DNA of 64,000 bases from Pogonophryne albipinna (Eukaryota > Chordata > Actinopteri > Perciformes > Artedidraconidae). Of this stretch, positions 895-62,981 are shown piece after piece. Both the position numbers and the translations under genes were made by a program. The notes under the pieces are model-generated. The model was not told the origin of the DNA and did not search any database. It saw only the letters and a list, made by a program, of their open reading frames with translations. How positions within the stretch are numbered: the stretch's first letter is position 1; every line of letters starts with the position of its first letter. The stretch spans positions 5,993,204-6,057,203 of the forward strand of contig CM053244.1 of the NCBI GenBank assembly GCA_028583405.1, read 5' to 3'.

Positions 895-3535
895 TTAAAA
901 AGTTTGGACACTCTCTGCCTCTCTGATTGAAACAGGAAGTTGGTTCCAGAGCAAAGGCGCTTGGTAGCTGAACGCTCTGACTCCTGATCTTGTTTTGCGG
1001 ACTCTGGGCACCACTAACAGACCTGCACCCTGGGAGCATAGTGTTCTAGCGGGGCAATAGTGGATACAAATATATTTTAGGTACGAAGGTGCCTGACCAT
1101 TTAGCGCCTGGTAAGTTAAAATAAGTATTTTAAAATAATGTCTGTGCTTTACCGGCAGCCAGTGTCGAGCAACTAAAATTGGAGTGATGTGCTCCATTTT
1201 TCTGGTTTTAGTGAGTATACGGGCTGCAGCATTTTGTACCAGCTGAAGATTGTTAATGGATGTGGTGGGACAGCCTGATGGAAGGGAGTTACAGTAATCC
1301 AGCCTAGAGGTAATGAATTAGTTTTTCTGCATCATTTTGAGTCAGTATGTGTCTGATTTTTTTTATATTGCAGAGATGAAAGAAGGCAGTCCGTGAAACA
1401 TTCTTTATGTGAGATTTGAAGGACAAATCTTCGTCGAAGACAATGCCAAGATTTTTGACTGTGGAGCTGGAGGTCTTGGTGATACATCAATCATTCTTAT
1501 GTCAATTGTGGCATCATTTTGGAATTGTTTGGGGCCAAGTAAAATGACTTTGGTTTTGTCTGTGTTTAAAAATAAGTAGTTGCAGGTCATCCATGGTTTT
1601 ATATCTGACACGCATTCTTGTAGTTTAGATAATTTATACTGTTCATCCGGCTTGAACGATAGGTACAGCTGTGTATCGTTAGCATAACAATGAAAATGTA
1701 TGGAATGTTTCCTTATAATTTTGCCTAATGGCAACATATTAAGAGAGAACAAAATGGGTCCGAGGACAGATCCTTGCAGCACTCCATGATTGAGTGTGGT
1801 TTTTATTGACCATTCATCATGCTCCGATACAAACTGAAGCTGTTCTGAGAGATATGACCTAAACCAGTTTATTCCAGTACCCTTTATGCCAATGGACTGT
1901 TCTAATCTTTCTAGTAGGATGTTGTGGTCAATGGTATCGAAAGTTCCAACTTAGGTACTCAACAGTACCAGGATCGAGCAAAGGACACTTTCAGATGCTA
2001 TGAGAAGGTCATTTGTGACTTTTGCTAGTGCTGTCTCTGTGCTGTGATGAGTTTTGAAGCCTGATTGGAATTCCTCAAGTAATTGATTCTTATTTAAAGG
2101 AGACCTATCATGCTATATTTGAATAATATATTGTAGGGCCATACCTATATAAGGTATATTTATACGTTTTTTTTTTAAAAATACCAAACATTTTGCTCTA
2201 TTTTCCTCTCCTCCACCCTGCATGCGCTGCAGCTGACCACGCCCCCCTGCAAAGGAGGGGGCCGAGTTACGAGCATCATGTTACCATGCTGTTACCATGC
2301 CACGGCAACCTCTCATTCCCCTGATAGGTGTAGAGTTGGCCATATAGGTGGAGCTCCTCGTCACTGACGTCAGACTATTTTCAAATCTAGATCAGTCTGT
2401 ATCAGATCTGTTGCAGCCCCGTTTTTAGAGATTTGGGTACGGAGAAAAAGAGAGACGGTTGTGTTTTCTGACACTTGGTGAGTTCCCTGACACACCGGGG
2501 ACACATATTCATGTATAAAAGACGTACAAAAGTGCATTTTGCATGATAGGTCCCCTTTAAGTATTCGCACAGCTGTTGAGCGACTGCTTTCTCAAGGATT
2601 TTAGAGATGAAGGGAAGGTTAGATATTGGTCTGTAGTTGGCCATAACCTCAGGATCAAGGTTAGATTTTTTAAGGAGAGGTTTAATTACAGCCTCCTTAA
2701 ATGACTGTGGTACATAGCGTGATGATAATGACATATTTATTAATTTTATTATGGGGTAACATTTCCTTAAACAGCTTGGATGGAATTGGGTCTAAGACGC
2801 AGGTTGACAGTTTCGAAGAGGAAATAATGGAAGTTAGCTGGTTAAGGTCTATTGGAGAGAAGCTATCTAGGTATATTTCAGGTGTAATAGCCGGTAAAAA
2901 TATACCAGTGGTTGTAGACACCTCAGTGCTGTATAAGGGAAATAGGAGGTTAATATGGTCTCTGAAAGTTTGGATTTTGTCATAAAAAAAATCATAAAGT
3001 CGTTACTTCTTAGTGGAATCGGGATAGATGGTTCAGAAGAGGCTCTCGGTCAGCCTGGCTAAGGTGTTAAAAATAAATCTGGTGTTATTCCTATTTTCTT
3101 CTATCAATGATGAGTAATAACTTGCTCTGGAATTTTGTAGAGCCTCCTTATATATTTTAAGGTTAACAAGCCAAAGTACACAAAATAATTCAAGCTTAGT
3201 AGAACGCCATTTCCTTTCAAGTTGTTGTAATTTTTGTTTTAGTTTCCTCTTTTTAAGAGGACCAACAGAGTCCAATATTATTCGGAGCGCGTCTGTGGCA
3301 CCATCAACAGCATTATCTATTTGGGGGGTGGGGGGGGTGGGTTAAAATTAGGGTAGGAGTCTTCCCATACACTGAGACAAGGTATTGCACTAGATGTTGA
3401 CAGAACTTTTTCCTTAAATGTTGCTATAACACTTTCAGTTAGATGTCTCGTATAGGAGATCTTGTCTGGCAGTTTGTAGTCCAGTAACAGTACATCAAAA
3501 GTTATTAAAGCAGGGTTATGTGGATAGTATGACAC
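895..3535 (-). pseudogene. Broken L2 ORF2 (endonuclease-reverse transcriptase)
   Basis: This is the coding remnant of the LINE above. In an intact relative it would nick target DNA and copy the element's RNA in the nucleus. Conserved blocks are recognisable in order but in several reading frames. The second catalytic aspartate position of the RT box reads N (YANDTQLY, about 1686 on the minus strand), and the start of the endonuclease is missing. It is non-functional by inspection. Confidence 0.8.
2098..2556. mobile_element. piggyBac-type MITE with TTAA target duplication
   Basis: The segment is bounded by TTAA on both sides (2094-2097 and 2557-2560). It has terminal inverted repeats AGGAGACCTATCATGC and AGGGGACCTATCATGC (right end read in reverse), one mismatch in 16. 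It interrupts the L2 RT coding region, and removing it with one TTAA restores LINE continuity. No coding capacity was seen. Related ends (CATAATAGGT or CATGATAGGT just before TTTAA) occur at 19395-19420 and 53385-53408. Confidence 0.85.
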
Positions 3536-3819
3536 ACTATTGATGTGTGAAGTGAGTTTGGTAGTAATAAGCTTTATAATAGTGATTAAATATTATTGTA
3601 TTCTCTTTTTTCGGAGTTGCACTTTGCAGACGGTCCCTGAGCACTCGTTTCTTCTCCGGCTGCAGATAGAGACCAATGTAATGTGTCCAGCTCGGAGGAC
3701 GGCGCGTATTGGCTTTTTTTGATCAAAATGTAATTGTAGTTCGTTGTCAACCTTACCACGGTACTTAGGAGACGTCATTTGTGTCTGAATAACGTTTTGT
3801 TCATGAGTTATTGATCCGT

Positions 3820-4024
3820 GAAATCAGAATCTCCCAATATCGTTCCAACTATACTGAACTAAACCAGAAGACCATCTCATTTCGTAGACCGCTCGGTTTG
3901 CTGTTCCTTCACTTTAATTTTATATACATTTATTTTGGACGAAAACTTAGCGTGAGGAAAGGCAAGTGTGGCGTGAGGTTAATTGCGTGACTCTCACGCT
4001 CAATGCGTGAGTGTTGGCAGCCCT
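3820..4024. repeat. Short repeat fragment with GCGTGAG-rich end
   Basis: The sequence around 3950-4024 has repeated GCGTGAG/CTCACGC words and ends in GGCAGCCCTG, a terminus style common in fish DNA elements. The other end was not identified. Beyond it, 4090-4200 is rich in GCTAGC/GCATTAGC words. Confidence 0.3.
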
Positions 4025-4399
4025 GAGTTACTACAGTAAGGATTAGTAACATGTAGTATTAGTAACATTTGGAGATGTTTAAACACAATGAGAAAACGCG
4101 TTAGCATTCACGCTAGCATTAGCATACACTTTAGCGTTAGCATACATGCTAGCGTTAGCCATACTAGCCTGTATACATGCGTATTGCACAGCTAGCATTA
4201 GCTATATTTACCTTGTTTACACTTAGGGGTCCTATGTGTTAATCTGTGTATGTTACACTTGCATGCATGAGATATGAGTACACATATCAGAAAAACTGAA
4301 AAGCATGAACAAACTAGAGTCCACATGGATGATGCTATGCGACTAGCCATGTTTAGGAAAGTAAACACAGCTGTCCAATGAGGGCTACAGGATAGGGAT

Positions 4400-4571
4400 C
4401 AGTAAGCATAATAAGGAGGTTGACAAAAACAGGCACTCAAATAATAGACTGTTTTAAGTGCTGTGTGCCTTTGACCTAGCCCTGCATTGTAATATGACGT
4501 ATGTTTTGAGTTTGTGTATAAGTCTGCTTTGGTAGAGCCCCCCCTGGAGAAAAATGCACCAGCCGCCACTG
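4400..4571 (-). mobile_element. hAT-like element end (CAGTGGCGGCTGGTG terminus)
   Basis: On the minus strand the segment begins CAGTGGCGGCTGGTGC at 4571. The same 15-base terminus opens a plus-strand copy at 62982. The opposite end was not located. Between 4572 and 6850 I see no gene and no clear element, only AT-rich intron-like DNA. Confidence 0.4.
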
Positions 4572-6858
4572 GATAGAAGTCAAATGACAACAGTAATTGT
4601 TATTTCAGGGTGTTTTCTGTCAATCAGTCAACATGAAAATAATGCATCTGTAACAAAGGGCCATGAAAATATGTCTCTATCATCCTTTTTCTGCCACTAC
4701 CTGCTTTGGTTTCTGCACTGTAGTGACACCTGTTTCGTCAACATTATAAATCATGTCTGGAGGGAATTAATGCCAGTAAAACAAACATGAAAGAACTAGA
4801 CCAGTATGACCAAATAGCCCAAAAATAGATATCCTTATAAATGTAGCTGGTAGGTAAACTCATGTGCCAGTCTGTTGCCAATATACTTTACTGATTTATA
4901 TAGGCTAGTCATTGATAGTTATTCATGTTATCAAATGTGGTATTCTCTCATCTGTCCATCACTTTAACCAGATTGTCAAAGAACTCCTGCCATGCAGGAA
5001 AGATGGTGGCGTGTCTTAAAATAATAGAACCAATCTAGACCTAAAAGAATATAATTGATTCTATAAAGATACTGTATTTAGCTACACAAACCAGTTAACA
5101 TTGGCTGACCTACTGAATCATGTGATCTCTTGGACACCCTACCCGCTAAACCCTTTCTCGTTTCAGTTGTTTGCATAAGGAATGTTATTGTTTCTTCAAT
5201 GTTTCAAACATAAAAAACAAATCAGTTGTGTAAAACTACATTAAAAAATACAATTCTATACTACAGAGAATTAAGTTAGCTTCCATTTACCCCAAAGCAT
5301 TAGGCTCACTTTGCCCCACAGCTACTTTTTTGGAAAAGGTTTAGTCAATCAAGCTAATCTTTAGTAAAAAGATTAATATGGTTTTACACCCTGCTAAATA
5401 ACCGACACGTTTGATACATATTTTCAGACCTGGATAAATTAGCTTTGACATAAAAGTAATTATATTAACACCTTACCTTGCACTATTTCTATTTTTATTG
5501 TTGTTTTTTTATATTTATTTGTTTATGTCTTGTAAATTTCACTGTCTCGTCAGTCCGCTCGCATTCTAGCATTCCACAAACATTGCTTAAGACTCAAGAA
5601 TGACCAGAAGATATTTGGAGTTTTGAAGGTCAAGGCAACTGTGACCTCATGTCTCAGGGACACCCAATGGAAAAAAATACTTCAAATTTCCGAAAGAAAA
5701 TTATCCACATTGAGTTTATTGAGTTGAAACAATAAGTTGATTTATAATAATATTTTTCAGTATTTTAAAGCTGCCTTTAAATCCTACACTCCCCAATGCA
5801 AAGAGCTGATACTTGGTGACCAATTCTAATCTCTTTATTGTATCTGTTTAGGCTAATCGCAACGGCTTGATAGGTGAGTTTCATCTGAATGTGATGGCTC
5901 ACTCGTAGTCAAGGCTCATCTCTAGACAGAGATAGAGTAGCAGAGGAGCAGAATCTCCTGACCAACTAAAGGCACATCTGGTTGGAACAAAGAGGCTGCT
6001 CATGTCACAATTAACCTAGCCTTTTCTAAGTTTTACCAATAGCAAGGTAGAAACCCTCTGGTATAGGAAACCTTTACCTGACTAACAAAGTGAAAAACAT
6101 GATTTGAATTTGAATTTAAGTGTAACAATGCAATATTGGGATATATATTTTTTAAATCCTCTGGAGCAGAGAGAGGAGCTGTGGATTATTGTTATTGATT
6201 AATGCATCAGTGTTTCTTAGGGTCAGCACTAAACTCACAACTTAAAATGAAAGCGTTTAGTTTATTTAATAAAAGAGCACATGTTCAATGTGAAAAGTGA
6301 CAGTAGTTATAGATTATTTGCAATTTGGTGCTATATATAAAATAAAATAAAAAGTAATACAAAAAAAAACACCTTGAATTTCAGGGGGGCGCGGGGCTCC
6401 GATGGTGGGGCGCCAACACTGCAGTCTAAAGGGTCATAAGCTAGCATCCTCTCAATAACTGGTGTTTTGTTGAGTTGGGCTAACAACACTGAGAAGGCTC
6501 AATAGTGTGTTCCGATTCCAGAACAACCCTCACTTTACCTGAACCCACACACTCAACCAAACTTCTGTAGCAAGTTATATTCCCTTGAATCTACACTATA
6601 ATCAGATACTGTCATCAGCTCAAAGCATGCTCGCTAACAACAACCAGTTAACAAGATGTCAAATTAACTTGCTGCTCAATCCACAAAAAAACAAACACTT
6701 ATTCTCAGCTAGCATACTAACCTAACTAGCATGCTAAGTACAAAACCAGCTACATACTGTAACCACCAATAGTTTCAGATCTCAAGCGTCTGTAAAGCTT
6801 CCCAAATATTTCTTCAAATTGGTTAGTTTGGGGTTTTTCTATACTCCATACTCTTTAT

Positions 6859-7766
6859 CAGTCTTTCTCACTGGTGGTCCGTGAGTGACCCCTAGTGGTC
6901 CGTGAGTATATTGGTAAAATGTCCCATTTGAAATTATATATTATACAGTACATTTTAAGTGCTTCTCAAACTGTTTAAAAATGATTAGTATAGAGTGTAG
7001 CATAGATGTAGCATATGATGCATATGCATAAAAGGGCAGATTGGCAATTTGTGTTCATAATTTAATAAAAATATGCCTGGAATGACATATGTATTTAAAA
7101 CAAACCCATGACCAAGGTTGGTTCAATCACTGCTTCATGACAGTTATTGAAAAAATATGCAAAGATATGAAGTGTATTTCAGTAAATTCTCCTCACATGA
7201 TAACTATCTCAACTTGTACCTAACCCTCTGACTGACAGAAGCTTTGTACTGCTGACATATATAGATATGCACTTTCTCTCTTATTTCTTTCTTTACCGTG
7301 ATAGGCTTAACCGTAGGGAGGCTATGTCTCAATGGGCTAATGCGTTGATCTTCGTATAATGGGAGCACAAATCATCCCCACTGCAGTCAACATGGCGTTG
7401 TGTCTGACTCTGGGCAAGACACTTCACACCAAGTTGCTCCTGTGGGGATTGTCCACAGTATGGAGTGTATGTAAATCACTTGGGATAAAAGCGTCTAACA
7501 AGTGACAATGTGATTCACCAATTTATTCATTATTAACATTTAATATTGTGTATTCTTTGGATATTCTATTGATTGTATTTGTATTGTTGATTTAATGTGT
7601 GAATGAAAAATATAAAGAAGGTCACATAAAGCTATCATTATTAGGCTGTTATTTGTAACATATTGTTGGAGTGGTAAGCAGGCCTATTGTTTTGAGTTAG
7701 GTGGCCTGTGAGTGTTTTTTTTATTGGTTAAGTGGTCCTTGGTTTGAAAAAGTTTGAGAAACACTG
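6859..7766. mobile_element. Non-autonomous hAT element with nested SINE-like piece
   Basis: The left end CAGTCTTTCTCACTGGTGGT and the right end (reverse strand) CAGTGTTTCTCAAACTTTTT form hAT-style inverted termini. Candidate 8-bp target copies are CTCTTTAT (6851-6858) and CTCTATAA (7767-7774), 6 of 8 identical, so the insertion is old. No transposase coding was seen. A SINE-like segment sits inside at about 7310-7505. Confidence 0.55.
7310..7505 (+). repeat. SINE-like fragment
   Basis: This has a tRNA-like head (AATGGGCTAATGCGTTGATC resembles an A-box region), a conserved body (GGCAAGACACTTCACACC), and the tail AAATCACTTGGGATAAAAGC then GTCTAACAAGTG, which closely resembles the tails of common teleost SINEs. 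No gene is present. The family was not determined. Confidence 0.5.
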
Positions 7767-8629
7767 CTCTATAAAGTCTAATTTTAGGTATCAAATCATA
7801 ATTGGGTATTCACCATTAGTAAAAAATAGTGATTGGTGCATCAGGATAACTGGCTAAAGTAGTAGTGATTTATCATCTTCTTTTTTGGTTGCTAGTTGCA
7901 CACACTCTGCGTTTCTTACAGAGTAGAATGAAAGACACCATTTTCAAGAGCTTATTTTGCCATCAAACATGGAAGAAGGAAAATAGGTTTGAATTGTGTC
8001 CTGTTGTAGACACTAACATACATAACTGGACATAAATATTTTAGACATATTTAAAATAACAAATTACAAAAGCCTTACAGTACATATTTAAGAAAGATAT
8101 GATTATTACCTAATATCAATCCATAAACACCACATGTAAAATAACAGTCCTTACTCTACACCAGGGGTGCCCACACTTTTTTGGCCGGTGAGCTACTTTT
8201 GAAATGACCAGCTCACCGAGGTCGACCAACCAAAAATAAAATCCCAAATTGCAAGGGGCTGAATAACACGTTTTATTTATACATGGGATAACTACAACAA
8301 CTCTATTTGGGTTCTTGAACAGAAACAAATACATGAATACATAAAACTAAAATGGCATGTTAACCTCTCTCTATTTCTCTATCTATTTCTCTATCTCTCT
8401 ATTTCTCTCTCTCTCTATTTATTTCTCTCTCTCTCCTCTCTGTTAAGAAACACATAACAAGCAGGCTAAGAAACCACTCTCCATGGTCCTGAAATCTTAA
8501 ACATAAAACACAAATATAAGTGCAAGGAATACAATAAATGAGTAGAACACTCAACTTAGACACCAGACTCAAATGGGTCCTATGAACAGTCTCTCAAAGT
8601 AATAATGATATACACATAGTTCCAATAGG

Positions 8630-33658: not shown

Positions 33659-34110
33659 CACATTCGTATACTTCAACTAGTCCCGCATGAATTTGGAGGA
33701 CCTTTCCTCACAGGTGGCAGGGTACTAACTTTCAACAAACATCAACTCATTCCACAATTCAAGTCATTCCACAATTCACATCATTCCACAATTCACATTC
33801 GTATACTTCAACTAGTCCCGCATGAATTCGGAGGACCTTTCCTCACAGGTGGCAGGGTCCTAACTTTCAACCAACATCAACTCATTCCACAATTCACATC
33901 ATTCCACAATTCACATTCGTATACTTCAACTAGTCCCTCATGAATTCGGAGGACCTTTCCTCACAGGTGGCAGGGTACTAACTTTCAACAAACATCAATT
34001 CATTCCACAATTCACATTCGTATACTTCAACTAGTCCCGCATGAATTCGGAGGACCTTTCCTCACAGGTGGCAGGGTACTAACGTCCAACAAACATCAAT
34101 TCATTTCACA
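33659..34110. repeat. Minisatellite, about 100-135 bp units
   Basis: Four units begin CACATTCGTATACTTCAACT at 33659, 33794, 33912 and 34013. Each carries GGAGGACCTTTCCTCACAGG. Unit length differs by the number of CATTCCACAATTCA sub-repeats. No gene is present. Confidence 0.9.
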
Positions 34111-34424
34111 AAGAAGTTTGAGAGAACCTTATCGAGAGCAAAATAAATAAAAAGACGTAGATGGAGTCAGTGAAGAATATGAGGTTGTTCTTCTTCCTTC
34201 CTTCTTTTTGTTGGGCATAGTCAGTGAAGAGGACCTCTGGGTTTCCACACAGTGTCTTCTCCTTGTGTTTGTCCTTTGCATTTACACTCTTGCATTTAGC
34301 AGGATATTCAATCTCTCTTCCCTCTGCTCTGAGAGCTGAGAAGTTCTTTTTTGCATGCTGGAAAGTTTCCATGGCGACCACTTGTTTTGTTCCAAAGAGA
34401 GGCTAGGCTAATTATTAGCTTACG

Positions 34425-55500: not shown

Positions 55501-56500
55501 NNNNNNNNNNNNNNNNNNNNNNNNNNNNNNNNNNNNNNNNNNNNNNNNNNNNNNNNNNNNNNNNNNNNNNNNNNNNNNNNNNNNNNNNNNNNNNNNNNNN
55601 NNNNNNNNNNNNNNNNNNNNNNNNNNNNNNNNNNNNNNNNNNNNNNNNNNNNNNNNNNNNNNNNNNNNNNNNNNNNNNNNNNNNNNNNNNNNNNNNNNNN
55701 NNNNNNNNNNNNNNNNNNNNNNNNNNNNNNNNNNNNNNNNNNNNNNNNNNNNNNNNNNNNNNNNNNNNNNNNNNNNNNNNNNNNNNNNNNNNNNNNNNNN
55801 NNNNNNNNNNNNNNNNNNNNNNNNNNNNNNNNNNNNNNNNNNNNNNNNNNNNNNNNNNNNNNNNNNNNNNNNNNNNNNNNNNNNNNNNNNNNNNNNNNNN
55901 NNNNNNNNNNNNNNNNNNNNNNNNNNNNNNNNNNNNNNNNNNNNNNNNNNNNNNNNNNNNNNNNNNNNNNNNNNNNNNNNNNNNNNNNNNNNNNNNNNNN
56001 NNNNNNNNNNNNNNNNNNNNNNNNNNNNNNNNNNNNNNNNNNNNNNNNNNNNNNNNNNNNNNNNNNNNNNNNNNNNNNNNNNNNNNNNNNNNNNNNNNNN
56101 NNNNNNNNNNNNNNNNNNNNNNNNNNNNNNNNNNNNNNNNNNNNNNNNNNNNNNNNNNNNNNNNNNNNNNNNNNNNNNNNNNNNNNNNNNNNNNNNNNNN
56201 NNNNNNNNNNNNNNNNNNNNNNNNNNNNNNNNNNNNNNNNNNNNNNNNNNNNNNNNNNNNNNNNNNNNNNNNNNNNNNNNNNNNNNNNNNNNNNNNNNNN
56301 NNNNNNNNNNNNNNNNNNNNNNNNNNNNNNNNNNNNNNNNNNNNNNNNNNNNNNNNNNNNNNNNNNNNNNNNNNNNNNNNNNNNNNNNNNNNNNNNNNNN
56401 NNNNNNNNNNNNNNNNNNNNNNNNNNNNNNNNNNNNNNNNNNNNNNNNNNNNNNNNNNNNNNNNNNNNNNNNNNNNNNNNNNNNNNNNNNNNNNNNNNNN
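55501..56500. other. Assembly gap (1000 N)
   Basis: A round-number block of N. It abuts the left arm of an inverted repeat, which is a plausible reason for the break. Any reading frame across it is meaningless. Confidence 1.
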
Positions 56501-57177
56501 AGTGACACAGATGTTGTTCTTACTAGTTAACTAGTGGAGGGCAATTTTTCTCACTAGTGAGGTTCTGTTATAAACATGTTAGACTTTGACCTTACATGTT
56601 ACACATTTTTCTTACATGTAAGCCCTTTCCTTCAACTAGTTTGGCTTTTTTCGCACTAGTGAGCAACTGCATGCAACTAGTTAGCTATTGATTTAACATG
56701 TATGGCTTTTTCCAGAACTAGTGGATATGTTCAGCCCACTAGTTGTGGTTTTGTTCTCTCTAGTTCAACACAATGACTTACTAGTTGACATGTACGTGCA
56801 ACTAGTTTACTAGTGATGTGTCAAAAAATGCACTAGTCAACATGTATGACTTTGAAACAATTCACTAGTTAACTAGTTGCACGTACACGTCAACTAGTAA
56901 GTCATTGTGTTGAACTAGAGAGAACAAAAGCACAACTAGTGGGCTGAAAATATCCACTAGTTCTGGAAAAAGCCATACATGTTAAATCAATAGCTAACTA
57001 GTTGCATACAGTTGCTCACTAGTGCGAAAAAAGCCAAACTAGTCGAAGGGAAGGCCTTACATGTAAGAAAAATGTGTAACATGTAAGGTCAAAGTCTAAC
57101 ATGTTTATAACAGAACCTGACTAGTGAGAAAAAATGCCCTCCACTAGTTAACTAGTAAGACAAACATCGGTGTCACT
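56501..57177. repeat. Inverted repeat 1 (315-bp arms, 47-nt spacer)
   Basis: Arms 56501-56815 and 56863-57177 are reverse complements with few mismatches. For example, the left AAGTTTGGCT-type blocks are mirrored at 57030-57045, and CACAATGACTTACTAGTTGA is mirrored at 56893-56912. The left arm is cut by the gap, so the true arm is probably longer. The spacer (56816-56862) is found reverse-complemented at 62298-62343. Confidence 0.9.
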
Positions 57178-57485
57178 AGTTTACTAGTGACTCCTCTAAG
57201 GCTTCACTAGTTAACTAGTGAGCTAAATTGTGTGTAACTAATTAACTAGTAAGGTCAAAACAATTGTACTAGTGCATATAGTGGACAATTTGGACCTCAC
57301 TAGTTAACTAGTGCACATTTTGAGCCTCACTAGTCAGCTTAGAAGACCAAAACAGGCTTCAACTAGTTAACTAGTGAACATTTTGCCTTCACTAGTTAAC
57401 GTGTAAGCTGCAATATGTATCCACTAGTTAACTAGTTGCCGTTCATATGGCCAACACGTTAACTAGTCAGCCATAGGCAAATGAA

Positions 57486-60349
57486 GCAGGCGGGACCCAG
57501 ATTCTGATTGATCAGTTCAGCTCTGTGAGGGAGAGCCTGAGGGGGCGTTCTCCTGCGATGTTTTTTGCAAGGTCTTGAAGACGTGAGGTGCATCAGTCGG
57601 TATTTAGTGCCTACTGTTAACATATTGTCCGTGGGAAGTCAGTCAGTGTGTGTTTTGCCTAGAAAAATACATGTTTCTGCTTCTGCTTTGTTCCTCTTTG
57701 GGTGTGTGTTTTTGTTGGTGCGAGTGTGCGCACGCTTGTGTCAGAACACCGGCACTCGAGACATAAAAGTAGAGGAAGTGATCGTGGGACATTTTATCAG
57801 CGGTGCTCATGAAATGAATAAAGCAGAAACACTGGACGGATCTTAAAATCAGGATAACGATAGATCCGTATGAAGATAAACAACCTCTCCATATTTGCCA
57901 AGACTAATATTTACGGAAGTCACGGCGATCTCTCAAAGCTGTGATCCGAAGAGGGTTACTTCCTCTTTCAATCCATCAATAATGTCACTCTTTTATCACA
58001 ATGTCATTCTAATCCAGCACCTTTCAAATTGCAGTTTAATAAAATGTTTTAAAGAGGATCTATATTTGTGTCTGCAGTCCTAAGGCAACTTTCTAATTTT
58101 AAGAAAGTCTTCAATGTTCTTACCTAATTTGATATACAATCATATGATCATAATAACAAAAAATACTTTTGTTTTATATTTTTGTAAATATGGTCAATTT
58201 TAAAACACAGTGTATTTAAGCTCTTAAATAAACTATTTTGGCTGGGTGGCGCTCTATAGCTTAGGGCCAATAGGAGACCTCGAATCATTATTTCCCCTCC
58301 TCCTCATTAGCATTCTGTGCAACTAGTGTGACGAGTGCACATTTGGGATCCACTAGTACCACGAGTGAACATTTTAAGCCTCACTAGTTCACTAGTGGAA
58401 TTTAAACGCATCTCACTAGTTAACTAGTAAAGGGCAAAGGGTTCACTAGTTAACGTGTAGACATTTTGAGCCCCACTAGTTAACTAGTAGGGTCAAAAGA
58501 GGCGTCAACTAGTTAACTAGTGAACTTTTTGCCTTTACTAGTTAACTAGTGAGTTATTCTGGGTGCGACTAGTTAACTAGTGCAGACAAATGTTTGCCAC
58601 TAGTTAACTAGTTGTGCTTCTTTTGTGTGACTAGTTAACATGTCAGAGATTTTGCAGCGCACTAGTTAACTTGTAAGAATTTTAGGGTCACTAGTACGGT
58701 CAGAGGGCCACTAGTTCATCAAAAAGCTTACACGTTGGGACTTTGGCGTTACAAGTGCTGCTCCTGGCGTCACTAGTAAGGCATACGTGGTAACTAGTGG
58801 TAACGTGGTAACGTGGTAACTAGTTGAATAAATACTCAAATGGCTTGCCATTATGGCAAGCCATTTGAGTATTTATTCAATTTCCTTGATATCAGACGGC
58901 AGCGACCTACACTAGTTGGCTCTTTGATTTCACTTGTTAGATATATGGTCAAACTAGTTAGGCACTCTGCTTTACTAGTTGAATAAAACATTACACTAGT
59001 CGCTCTTTTTCAGCAACTAGTGGCACTTTTGTCCGACTAGTTACCACGTATGCCTTACTAGTGACGCCAGGAGCAGCACTAGTAACGCCAAAGTCCCAAC
59101 GTGTAAGCTTTTTGATGAACTAGTGGCCCTCTGACCGTACTAGTGACCTAAAAGTCTTACAAGTTAACTAGTGCGCTGCAAAAGCTCTGACATGTTAACT
59201 AGTCACACAAAAGAAGCACAACTAGTTAACTAGTGGCAAACATTTGTCTGCACTAGTTAACTAGTCGCACCCAGAATAACTCACTAGTTAACTAGTAAAG
59301 GCTAAAAGTTCACTAGTTAACTAGTTGACGCCTCTTTTGACCTTACTAGTTAACTAGTGGGGCTCAAAATGTCTACACGTTAACTAGTGAACCCTTTGCC
59401 CTTTACTAGTTAACTAGTGAGATCATTTAAATTCCACTAGTAAACTAGTGAGGCTTAAAATGTTCACTAGTTGTACTAGTGGATCCCAAATGTGCACTAG
59501 TCACACTAGTTGCACAGAATGCTAATGAGGAGGAGGGGAAAGAATGCATCGAGGTCTCCTATTGGCCCTAAGCTATAGAGCGCCACCCAGCCCAAATAGT
59601 TTATTTAAGAGCTTAAATACACTGTTTTAAAATACAGTAATACGACCATATTTACACAAATATAAAAAAAATTATTTGTGTAATTATGATCATATGATTG
59701 TATATCAAATTAGGTAAGAACATTGAAGACTTTCTTAAAATTAGAAACGTGCCTGAGGACTGCAGACAGGAATATAGATCCTCTTTAACACATTTTATTA
59801 AGCTGCAATTTGAAAGGTGCTGGATTAGAATGGCTCTGTGATAACAGAGACATTAGTGATGGATAGAAAGAGGAAGAAACCCTCTTCGGATCACAACTTT
59901 GAGAGATCGTCGTGACTTCCGTAAATATTAGTCTAAGGCAAAATATGGAGAGGTTGTTTATCTTGATACGGATCTATCGTTACCCTGATTTTAAGATCTG
60001 TCCAGTGTTTCAGCTTTATTCATTTCATGAGCACCGCTGATAAAATGTCCCACGATCACTTCCTCTACTTTTGTGTCTCGAGTGCCGGTGTTCTCACACA
60101 CAAGCGTGCGCACATTCGCACTAACACACACACACAAAGCGGAACAAAGCAGAAGCAGAAACATGTATTTTTCTAGGCAAAACACACACTGACTGACTTC
60201 CCACGGACAATATGTTAACAGTAGACACTAAATACCGACTGATGCACCTCACGTATTCGAGACGTTGCTAAAAAACATCGCAGGAGAACGCCCCCTCAGG
60301 CTCTCCCTCCAGAGCTGAACTGACCAATCAGAATCTGGGTCCCGCCTGC
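57486..60349. repeat. Inverted repeat 2: giant palindrome with ~1.4-1.5 kb arms
   Basis: Left arm 57486-58851 and right arm 58853-60349 are reverse complements over almost their whole length. At the centre, 58824-58851 pairs perfectly with 58853-58880 (28 bp, one unpaired base at 58852). The right arm has about 160 bp (58881-59040) not matched on the left. Arm ends carry GCAGGCGGGACCCAGATTCT (left) and its complement (right). Confidence 0.93.
58318..59512. repeat. ACTAGT-box arrays at the heart of the palindrome
   Basis: About 25 ACTAGT hexamers lie in 58318-58830, with the mirror set in 58905-59512. Most are paired as ACTAGTTAACTAGT. Variant boxes are ACATGT, ACGTGT, ACTTGT and ACAAGT. Unit lengths counted between 58415 and 58680 are 30, 30, 33, 29, 31, 31, 31 and 31 bp. 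The 15-19-nt sequences between the 14-mers differ from unit to unit, but are conserved between the mirrored arms. Confidence 0.92.
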
Positions 60350-60365
60350 TTTATTTGCATATATA
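60324..60365 (+). promoter_or_regulatory. Candidate promoter for the transposase-like gene
   Basis: CCAAT (60324-60328), an octamer-like ATTTGCAT (60353-60360) and TATATA (60360-60365) lie in promoter-like order, 136 bp upstream of the ATG at 60501. The mirrored site in the left arm (57470-57530) lacks both CCAAT and TATATA. This is inference from motif order only. Confidence 0.4.
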
Positions 60366-60366
60366 G

Positions 60367-60411
60367 GCTCACTAGTGAACGTGTATGGCCTTCACGTTCA
60401 CTAGTGAGCCA
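60367..60411. other. Perfect 18-bp stem hairpin upstream of the transposase gene
   Basis: GGCTCACTAGTGAACGTG and CACGTTCACTAGTGAGCC flank a 9-nt loop. Each stem contains an ACTAGT box. It lies just downstream of the TATATA motif, so it would fall in or near the 5' UTR. It could be an operator-like site or simply part of the element's end. Confidence 0.6.
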
Positions 60412-60500
60412 TATGAACTGCAACTAGTTAACTAGTGGATGCATATCGGTCTCCTATTGGCTCTTAAGCCCATCAATCTTCACAGAAGTTCAAACACAAG

Positions 60501-62028
60501 ATGGCGGGCGTTGTACTGAGACGTATAAGAAGAAGATGTACTGAGATTCAAAGAGCATTTAATCAAGGATCTTTGGGCCGAACAGAAGTTTACGCTATCA
60601 ACAGCTCAATAGCTAACGTAAGAAGGGTTGGAGATACTATTGGCGCCGAGGCTGTGCAGGATATAGTTCAAAGTCTCACTGATCTCAGATCTTTCATCTC
60701 CGGACCTCAAGCTTCCAATGCCCTACATACTGGTTTCCATGCAGCACACCTTGTGCATTCAGGTGAGTTACTAACTAACATTGATAAATGACTTGCCTTG
60801 ACTTTAGGCCTGTACCTGAATATTCGAATATCCGAATATTCGTTCGTTGGAATACTATTCGGGTTTCAATTTCGTTATTCGGATATTCGTTTTGTTTGTT
60901 TTTTTCCCGTTTTTGTTTTTATTTGAATGTATTGAAATCTCCAATATCACCGTAAGAGCTTGTTCGGGGGGTACTAACACTTAACCATAAACGTTATCGT
61001 TTACTTTCTCCGTCTTTAGATATTACTTTTCTCCGTTAATCTCCGTCACGTTGTTTCCATAGCAACAACAACTTCCTGTCAACAGCGCTACCTCTCCTTC
61101 AAAATAAAAGCATGTCCATGAATAGGAAGCCAAGCCACTTAAGACATATACAACTGCAACGAAAGTAACAAACACAATGCGATATATTTTTCAATTTCAA
61201 AGAACACAAATTGGGTTAATAACTATAAAACAACACTACTGTAGAATAACAAAATGAATGCCGTGAATACACCAACATACACGCGTTGAAGCGGTTCGTT
61301 GCTGATTACTACGCCACTTTTTTTACCAGTTTATATAACTTTGTTTGAACTCACATGAATATTAATGTGACCTGTTGTTAACAGACTTACTTAACATTTA
61401 AAAACTCATTGTTCTGTTGATGAACGTTCTGATGAACTGTTATAATAATTATACATGTTTATATATTTGATATTATATATTTTCCTTTTTTATTTCCATA
61501 TCATAAGGAAGACGAGGAAGACCTGCTCTTGACATAACGAGGGGGCAAATTGAGCTGCTCCTAGGTCAAGGTTTTACCGTGAGAGCAATGGCAAGGATGT
61601 TGGGCTGTTCCTCCTCATTCCTTCATAAAAAAATGATGTCTTTAAATACTTCAGCAAGGAACAGATTCACTACCATTAGTGATCCTGACCTAGAAGAGCA
61701 TGTCAGGAGACTCCACAACCAGTTTCCTAGATCAGGTTCAGAAGTAAGCATACTAGTTTATATTCCCTTTTAGATTTTTTTTATATATAATATTTATTGA
61801 AAATGTTCTGCATCTTATTTGTCTTTTTAAATTAACCACTTTCAGATGATGAGGGCATACCTGCACGAAGAAGGGATTGTGATACAAAGAAGAAGAGTTA
61901 GAGAGACTCTAAAGCAAATCGATCCAGCTGCAGCAGCACAGAGATGGGGCAGACTGTGGCTAGGAGAACCTACTATGTGCCCTTCCTAACAGCTTGTGGC
62001 ACATAGATGGCCATATGCGTCTCATTCG
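60501..62028 (+). pseudogene. Three-exon HTH/integrase-like transposase gene, frameshifted and truncated
   Basis: Exon 1 (60501-60762, donor G|GTGAGT) begins MAGVVLRRIRRRCTEIQRAF. Exon 2 (61508-61743) joins in phase and has a GRRGRPALDITRGQIELLLG segment, then a helix-turn-helix around GFTVRAMARMLGCSSSFLHK. Exon 3 (61846 onward) reads MMRAYLHEEGIVIQRRRVRE and stops at TAA 61987. Beyond two apparent 1-bp losses, a different frame gives NSLWHIDGHMRLIR before a donor at 62029. Such W-H-x-D-G segments open the catalytic core of integrase-like transposases in fish and invertebrates. The rest of the core is absent, and only 270 AT-rich bases separate it from the right array. Exact superfamily (Ginger- or IS3EU-like) was not determined. 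Confidence 0.65.
60805..61300. repeat. Repeat insertion in transposase intron 1
   Basis: TGAATATTCGAATATCCGAA then TATTCG at 60820-60870 is the palindromic end of a common fish element. The remaining intron is non-coding. No matching right end was found. Confidence 0.4.
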
Positions 62029-62297
62029 GTAATCAGCTCTTGAATTTGAAAGAAATCAATTATAGTAGTAATTATAATCTTCTAATCCAGCCTAGTTTTG
62101 TTTATTATTTTCCTCTTTCACTATATAATCTCAATCATTTTCTTATCAACAACATTTATAGAAGTATTGGATATATTGAACAAATGTTATAAAGATAACC
62201 TTTAAGGTATTTAATATAATGCATTAATTCCTTGTTCTATTCGATTATTTGCACAGGTGGGGGCTTGTGACACATGCCGGAATTGTTCAACAAGTGA

Positions 62298-62945
62298 ATT
62301 GTTTCAAAGTCATACATGTTGACTAGTGCATTTTTTGACACATCACTAGTAAACTAGTTGCACGTACATGTCAACTAGTAAGTCATTGTGTTGAACTAGA
62401 GAGAACAAAACCACAACTAGTGGCTGAACATATCCACTAGTTCTGGAAAAAGCCATACATGTTAAATCAATAGCTAACTAGTTGCATGCAGTTGCTCACT
62501 AGTGCGAAAAAAAGCCAAACTAGTTGAAGGAAAGTGCTTACATGTAAGAAAAATGTGTAACATGTAAGGTTACTAGTAACTAGTTAACTAGTAAGAACAA
62601 CATCTGTGTCACTAGTTCACTAGTGACTCCTCTAAGAGTTCACTAGTTAACTAGTGAGCTAAAGTGTGTGTAACTAGTAAACTAGTAAGGTAAAAACAAT
62701 TGTACTAGTGCATCTAGTGGACAATTTGGACCTCACTAGTTAACTAGTGCACATTTTGAGCCTCACTAGTCAGCTTAGAAGACCAAAACAGGCTTCAACT
62801 AGTTAACTAGTGAACATTTTGCCTTCACTAGTTAACATGTATGCTGCAATATGCATCCACTAGTTAACTAGTTGCCGTTCATATGGCCAACATGTTAACT
62901 AGTCAGCCATAGGCAAATGAAGCAGGCGGGACCCCGATTTTGATT
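62298..62945. repeat. Right-hand ACTAGT-box array (direct repeat of 56863-57500)
   Basis: It matches the earlier array unit by unit in the same orientation (GTGCATCTAGTGGACAATTT, GAGCCTCACTAGTCAGCTTA, and the final AGGCAAATGAAGCAGGCGGG). About 55 bp present at 57080-57135 is deleted here near 62570. The array ends at GCAGGCGGGACCCCGATTTT. Confidence 0.9.
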
Positions 62946-62981
62946 TGGTCAGTGTCCAAACTGAGTGAAGAGCCTTTTAAG

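Follow-up and report, generated by a model that had tools for sequence, protein, structure and literature searches.

ACTAGT box arrays in a pair of IS3EU/GingerRoot-like transposons of Pogonophryne albipinna as putative docking sites of their transposase

In a stretch of 64,000 nucleotides of the Pogonophryne albipinna genome (C3:5993204-6057203, hereafter the window), we identified a pair of transposon copies lying end to end, the right-hand copy being disrupted and carrying an internal deletion. We propose, with a probability of roughly 0.78, that these are cut-and-paste elements of the IS3EU/GingerRoot kind, whose dense arrays of the palindrome ACTAGT would serve as docking sites for the transposase that the elements encode. 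The features on which this proposal is built were computed, namely the element ends, the target duplications, the presence of the arrays inside terminal inverted repeats (TIRs), the helical phasing of the boxes, their lower variation and the linkage to a companion HECT gene. Every full end consists of a long inverted repeat with three parts, the terminus TATGGCAAGCC.., 36 palindromic boxes with a TMACTAGTKA core, and a leader.

We counted 137 ACTAGT sites in the window (each once, since the motif is a palindrome), against 18.3 +/- 4.2 in shuffled sequences, none of which (0/100) reached 137. Within 56501-62950 there are 126 of them, grouped in four dense blocks (38 at 56522-57467, 55 at 58322-59510, four at 60371-60436 and 28 at 62322-62903) plus one isolated copy at 61752. 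The doubled form ACTAGT-TA-ACTAGT, which gives a step of exactly 8 bp, accounts for 32 of the 117 distances between neighbours up to 60 bp apart, and the 169 ACNNGT sites of the same segment comprise the 126 ACTAGT and 22 ACATGT. The first-pass annotation of this DNA had described a dense accumulation of ACTAGT, its frequent doubling and variants keeping the form AC-two bases-GT; the first two descriptions are confirmed by these counts and the third is correct for most variants. In the 1.07-Gb assembly that was searched, two double boxes at most 30 bp apart occur 477 times.

From left to right, the window contains the left element in reverse orientation (inner or M array, leader, terminal or T array, terminus at 58851), followed by the right element from 58852 (Table 1). 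The inverted pair of termini (58825-58878) abuts with the loss of one base and with no host DNA in between. The right element is collinear with an intact copy over 58852-62285, at 97% identity, and an internal deletion removed the HECT gene together with the remainder of transposase exon 4; no right end of this element was detected within 5 kb beyond the window. The multi-arm folding that had been noted in this region corresponds to real inverted repeats (arms of about 90-320 bp with 95-100% identity), but these are mostly the TIRs of the two elements meeting at 58851/58852, together with the internally palindromic M array (arms 56501-56821 and 56857-57177). Such arms, the end-to-end copies and the palindromic M array could suggest that boxes and inverted arrays extrude cruciforms or hairpins, which would be processed in transposition or would cause rearrangements. 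We consider this role of DNA structure very improbable, since the boxes are only 6-14 bp long and split by unrelated spacers, and since the constraint and phasing of such short boxes, described below, are better explained by protein binding.

The ends of the elements were defined by aligning copies, as the first-pass annotation had suggested. We compared 16 loci of 9.9 kb (L006-L021, the window's own place included) and L022, and many of the alignments between loci start at window position 58852, with TATGGCAAGCCATTTGAGTATTTATTC. The element ends read TATGGCAAGCC..GGCTTGCCATA (TATGG..CCATA), and the terminus is matched at 112 + 118 = 230 places in the genome (at most two mismatches over 26 bases), against 0 for a reversed control. 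In L006, a complete 5.2-kb element (3224-8388) has inverted repeats of about 1.6 kb with 94.6% identity; TIRs containing the T array measure 1.4-1.6 kb, and in L006 and L020 the TIR match reaches window position 60499, the transposase gene starting at 60501. A 9.4-kb copy on C4 (34476108-34485536) has inverted segments of 742 and 1134 bp. Target duplications were scored on 18 left/right end pairs, taking the outermost termini (the pair at C18:1.67 Mb was dropped, its right end not having been found), and exact 6-bp duplications were present at seven of them: GAGCTG in L011, TGCGCA and CACCGG on C16, GCGTCA on C132, CCCTCC on C197 and TGTCTG at two pairs (L006 and C4:1.48 Mb), both of which sit in microsatellites and therefore carry little weight. 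A TA target duplication was rejected, as this dinucleotide is part of the element's own TATGG terminus and the duplication is of 6 bp. A small copy, of 1,012 bp on C5, is composed of almost nothing but two ends, with T arrays at both and 37 ACTAGT, and is bordered by GCTGTC/GCTGCC, a match of five of six bases; this minimal copy fits with the arrays being the cis-acting part of the element.

The C4 copy has all four transposase exons open, and the protein obtained by joining them matches Pfam rva_4 (8.8e-92), with an additional sub-threshold match to rve; besides rva_4, the Pfam search returned weak helix-turn-helix matches, and neither a zinc domain nor THAP. The catalytic residues Asp223, Asp280 and Glu315 are invariant across 50 homologues, and the transposase is a predicted integrase-like DD34E enzyme. 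A sequence search of solved structures gave only two chance interferon matches; the predicted model of a Merluccius homologue (P0029, mean predicted local distance difference test score 83) matches retroviral integrases, IstA and TnsB with E about 3e-5 to 1e-3 and low template modelling (TM) scores. A Gymnodraco acuticeps protein is 98% identical over 73% of the transposase length, and 1769 homologues have E <= 0.001 among 7987 scored, the 120 listed including fishes, echinoderms, molluscs, insects and sources without a name. Scanning with the transposase alignment found no relative in viral contigs and seven loci in genome contigs, namely five weak bacterial matches and two contigs filed under a sponge symbiont metagenome-assembled genome (L076 and L077, 41-45% identity), which are probably sponge DNA. 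In these two contigs the palindrome TAGCTA, which is scattered, appears frequent. The one viral contig with two 14-mers, L005, was considered as kin and rejected, as it resembles phage DNA by eye and the 14-mers were taken as chance.

By its termini, the length of its target duplication and the features of its transposase, the family appears to fit IS3EU/GingerRoot. In the accessible parts of the published descriptions, IS3EU has TA..TA termini and 6-bp target duplications, with TAYGG..CCRTA in rust fungi, and an integrase-like DDE transposase without HHCC, whose first Asp is located 100-300 residues from the N-terminus (PMC10045372, PMC12730594). The elements described here agree in all of these features, with the duplication seen at the seven pairs listed above. 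TET-carrying fungal members also bear passenger genes (alpha-kinase, TET/JBP), whereas palindromic box arrays, TIRs of 1.4-1.6 kb and a HECT gene are absent from those same parts (PMC10045372, PMC12730594). The idea of the first-pass annotation that this might be an undescribed kind of transposon is consequently not upheld; nevertheless, it was right to assign the arrays to a transposon. They lie inside long TIRs, flank a transposase gene and seem to act like functional subterminal sites. Among the titles and abstracts listed in searches of the open-licence PMC literature, none combined ACTAGT arrays with IS3EU, none joined transposon, HECT and IS3EU, and no ACTAGT box, two-step helical layout or companion HECT gene was found.

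The arrays have a defined design. Read inward, the T array starts 59 bp inside the terminus with 12 single boxes placed 20-21 bp apart (on average about 21 bp), which are followed by 12 double boxes placed 29-33 bp apart (about 31 bp); the M array is less regular and has gaps of 23, 39 and 50 bp too. Flanking bases extend the palindrome of the box to about TMACTAGTKA. In both T and M, unit starts fit best to a period of 10.3 bp, and the phase coherence of either array was never attained in 5000 trials in which gaps were jittered by at most 5 bp. Identity among equally long spacers is 30% and 33%, versus 25-26% expected from composition; the spacers are thus unrelated to one another, which indicates that the array is not a recent tandem repeat. 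This near-random identity, set beside nearly identical boxes that are conserved across subfamilies (though hardly above the spacers in the old copy L017), leads us to disfavour, as the least probable explanation, a functionless satellite-like product of tandem duplication with boxes as remnants of the duplicated unit, even if spacing is regular and element ends are in some cases duplicated in tandem, with steps of 49 bp and about 297 bp. Instead of head-to-tail units alike throughout and with no tie to a gene, we observed unrelated spacers, with only short low-copy tandem repeats, and the arrays, in the one genome analysed, occupy fixed places in elements with termini, some of them with transposase, contrary to the simple satellite unlinked to the gene that had been named as an alternative.

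The boxes also vary less than the DNA between them. From 49 T-array matches with at least 80% coverage, we retained 27 distinct ones by dropping those identical to or contained in others (the window's right arm is one of the 27), and found shared variants in 12/216 box columns and 83/386 spacer columns (nominal Fisher p 8.6e-8), or 9/183 and 66/320 with CpG-like sites excluded; none of 599 rotations of the box mask gave a stronger depletion. Along the six box positions, shared variants number 0, 1, 5, 4, 2 and 0 of 36, so that the outer A and T have none and the middle two positions have most. In the two halves of the M array (11 and 10 copies), 0/97 and 0/67 box columns are variable at non-CpG-like sites, versus 6.7% and 5.9% outside boxes. 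Identities in boxes and spacers are, respectively, 0.990 and 0.899 in L011, 0.970 and 0.780 in one arm of L044, and 0.870 and 0.828 in L017, the one old copy, which we read as boxes that would be kept while a lineage is active and would decay once a copy dies, the second half of this reading coming from a single copy.

We read the boxes as cis-acting sites for protein binding and the transposase as their most likely binder. In the mechanism that we infer, dimers of the transposase would contact the boxes by means of its helix-turn-helix region near the N-terminus, and the spacing of two helical turns between single boxes and of three between double boxes would place the bound proteins on one face of the DNA. 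A filament-like multimer would then form on each end, separating true ends from scattered 6-mers, and the integrase-like domain would perform cleavage and joining at the TA termini, staggered by 6 bp. Boxes also occur near the start codon of the transposase and upstream of the HECT gene, which suggests that the transposase may regulate its own promoters as well.

This docking proposal has several points against it. A transcription factor or chromatin protein of the host could be the binder, with the arrays serving as enhancers or silencers of the element genes, since the boxes by the transposase start codon (60371-60436) and upstream of the HECT gene are in regulatory places, and dimeric factors of the host typically recognise short palindromes; we nevertheless find this unlikely, because the geneless C5 copy retains T arrays at both ends with nothing to express, and because the T array begins as close as 59 bp to the terminus. 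As to the transposase itself, its helix-turn-helix matches (about residues 99-188) fall below the Pfam curated cut-offs, and no ACTAGT array is present in the two sponge contigs (L076 and L077) with a related enzyme. No target duplication was seen at 10 of the 18 end pairs (L012, L013, L014, C4:34.48 Mb, C6:1.71 Mb, C9:35.59 Mb, C9:36.14 Mb, C18:4.71 Mb, C20:4.13 Mb and C84), which extra tandem ends and rearrangement may explain without this being proof, and one further pair, that of C5, has the 5/6 match, so that mobility of the minimal copy is likely and not proven. The L011 element has an exact duplication, yet no ACTAGT occurs in the outermost 2.3 kb of its left side. Concerning constraint, the p values are nominal, as the rows are related copies that share ancestry, and the contrast becomes weaker when four divergent loci (five rows) are left out (6/216 versus 43/386, p 1.6e-4; p 0.008 at non-CpG-like sites); the array-free leader is itself fairly conserved, its 8.3% of shared-variant columns (17 copies) standing between boxes and spacers, and at CpG-like sites, which are few in the M array, its boxes show no reduced variability. 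Finally, the fit to IS3EU/GingerRoot was judged against published descriptions.

Repeated transposase sites near element ends occur in other systems. The kilobase-long, internally repetitive TIRs observed here are those of the Foldback/Galileo-like structural class. In the available text on Galileo, long internally repetitive TIRs have several tested transposase sites, the proximal one at about 70 bp (59 bp here), whereas its transposase is a THAP protein of the P superfamily, Foldback-like, there are three named site positions instead of 36 boxes per end, and the 21/31-bp helical design is not part of that description; Foldback and Phantom are named there as similar and were not tested (PMC3688188). 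The THAP domain of Galileo and the P superfamily has no counterpart among the Pfam matches of the present transposase. Hermes, one of the hAT elements with subterminal repeats, shares short repeated subterminal sites and an N-terminal DNA-binding domain, and one quasi-palindromic pair is bound cooperatively, but its sites are of 4 bp, 17 and 14 per end, and its protein has a BED zinc finger and belongs to the hAT catalytic family, as far as the accessible part of the report describes (PMC10368747). The number, palindromy and helical phase of the sites described here go beyond both Galileo and Hermes. N-terminal DNA-binding domains and several sites per end, though far fewer than here, are also known for TnsB, IstA and Mu. 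These transposases of Tn7/CAST, IS21 and Mu have an integrase fold (structures 8ea3, 8aa5, 9bw1, 8b4h and 4fcy), as is predicted for the present one; they are, however, bacterial or phage proteins, and whole-chain similarity is weak (TM by query 0.13-0.29). The Drosophila Foldback element has long inverted repeats of short units with periods of about 10, 20 and 31 bp. These are tandem related units, not conserved boxes with unrelated spacers.

The companion gene encodes a HECT ubiquitin ligase. Its last two exons are present in the C4 copy, on the strand opposite to the transposase, and exons of the whole HECT domain (profile 9-303 of 306, joined by eye) were found in a 21-kb element on C197, the one with the exact CCCTCC duplication. 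A convergent HECT match lies about 1.3-6.2 kb away at 16 of 18 close-family transposase loci (matches ranked above the 42%-identity row, merged by place), C8:39735592 and C6:11291061 having none; these are not 16 independent events, since several have identical scores (recent copies or duplicated assembly). Away from such transposases there are four weak HECT matches, with 36-40% identity. Given this linkage and the few unlinked matches, the HECT gene is a resident part of the element family in this genome. The HECT fragment and a Pogonophryne albipinna protein share 100% identity over 163 residues, which, together with the Gymnodraco acuticeps match of the transposase, points to an Antarctic notothenioid as the probable host. 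Several fish relatives are annotated as G2/M phase-specific E3 ligase-like, and the gene would offer a possible origin for some of the fish proteins named 'G2/M phase-specific E3 ubiquitin-protein ligase-like'. The M array is on the upstream side of this gene in C4 and C197, the two larger copies that were examined. A broader hypothesis, in which each end is a graded helical docking platform, the boxes are also the operator of both genes, and HECT could control how fast the transposase, or a restriction factor of the host, is turned over, is tentative and, in our view, rather doubtful. Within the 21-kb element, near the M array, we also noticed by eye a putative fragment of a Tc1-type transposase (L074, C197:157000-161000).

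Transposases in general face the task of locating their correct ends in a gigabase genome with one short DNA-binding domain, and this family is a natural many-copy design that retains its sites, their spacing and their helical phase despite drift of the intervening DNA.

Table 1. Coordinates of the elements and their parts within the window.
Feature	Position	Strand	Remarks
Assembly gap	55501-56500		left element runs off into the gap
Inner (M) box array, left element	56522-57467	-	38 ACTAGT, internally palindromic
Box-free leader in inverted repeat, left element	57473-58321	-	counterpart of 59511-60365 in the window's inverted repeats
Terminal (T) box array, left element	58322-58824	-	most of the single-box segment deleted
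Left element terminus	58825-58851	-	read inward ATGGCAAGCCATTTGAG.., one base short
Right element terminus and 59-bp box-free end segment	58852-58910	+	TATGGCAAGCCATTTGAGTATTTATTCAA..
Terminal (T) box array, right element	58911-59510	+	12 single, then 12 double boxes
Leader inside TIR	59511-60365	+	one ACNNGT; probably holds the transposase promoter
Four-ACTAGT cluster	60371-60436	+	ends 64 bp before the transposase start codon
Transposase exon 1	60501-60762	+	MAGVVLRRIRRR..; begins just past the end of the TIR match (60499)
Transposase exon 2	61508-61743	+	GRRGRPALD..; weak helix-turn-helix match
Transposase exon 3	61846-62028	+	broken by a frameshift and an in-frame stop; would hold the first catalytic Asp
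Transposase exon 4, first bases	62257-62285	+	homology to intact copy stops at 62285
Partial M box array at deletion join	62290-62903	+	28 ACTAGT

At several unlinked copies the termini are tandemly duplicated, a second terminus being located further inward, at 49 bp or about 297 bp from the first (L014, C2:35037359-35038018; L035, C4:34476858-34476907; L052, C8:22001736-22002255), with junctions ..GACGGC/TATGGC.. and ..GTGACC/TATGGC..; an aborted reaction at the ends or the inheritance of subfamilies could account for them. Some copies (L006, L007, L020 and C20:4125224) are inside (GTCT/GTGTCT)n microsatellites, for which target preference or expansion after insertion are possible reasons. 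At the right border of the window, the segment 62981-64000 starts with cagtggcggctggtg and is shared, at least partly, with L006, L020 and L074; from its motif, we take it to resemble a hAT-type insertion inside the element. A separate tandem repeat at 33659-34111, with units of 101-135 bp and four ACTAGT, is apparently unrelated to the arrays.

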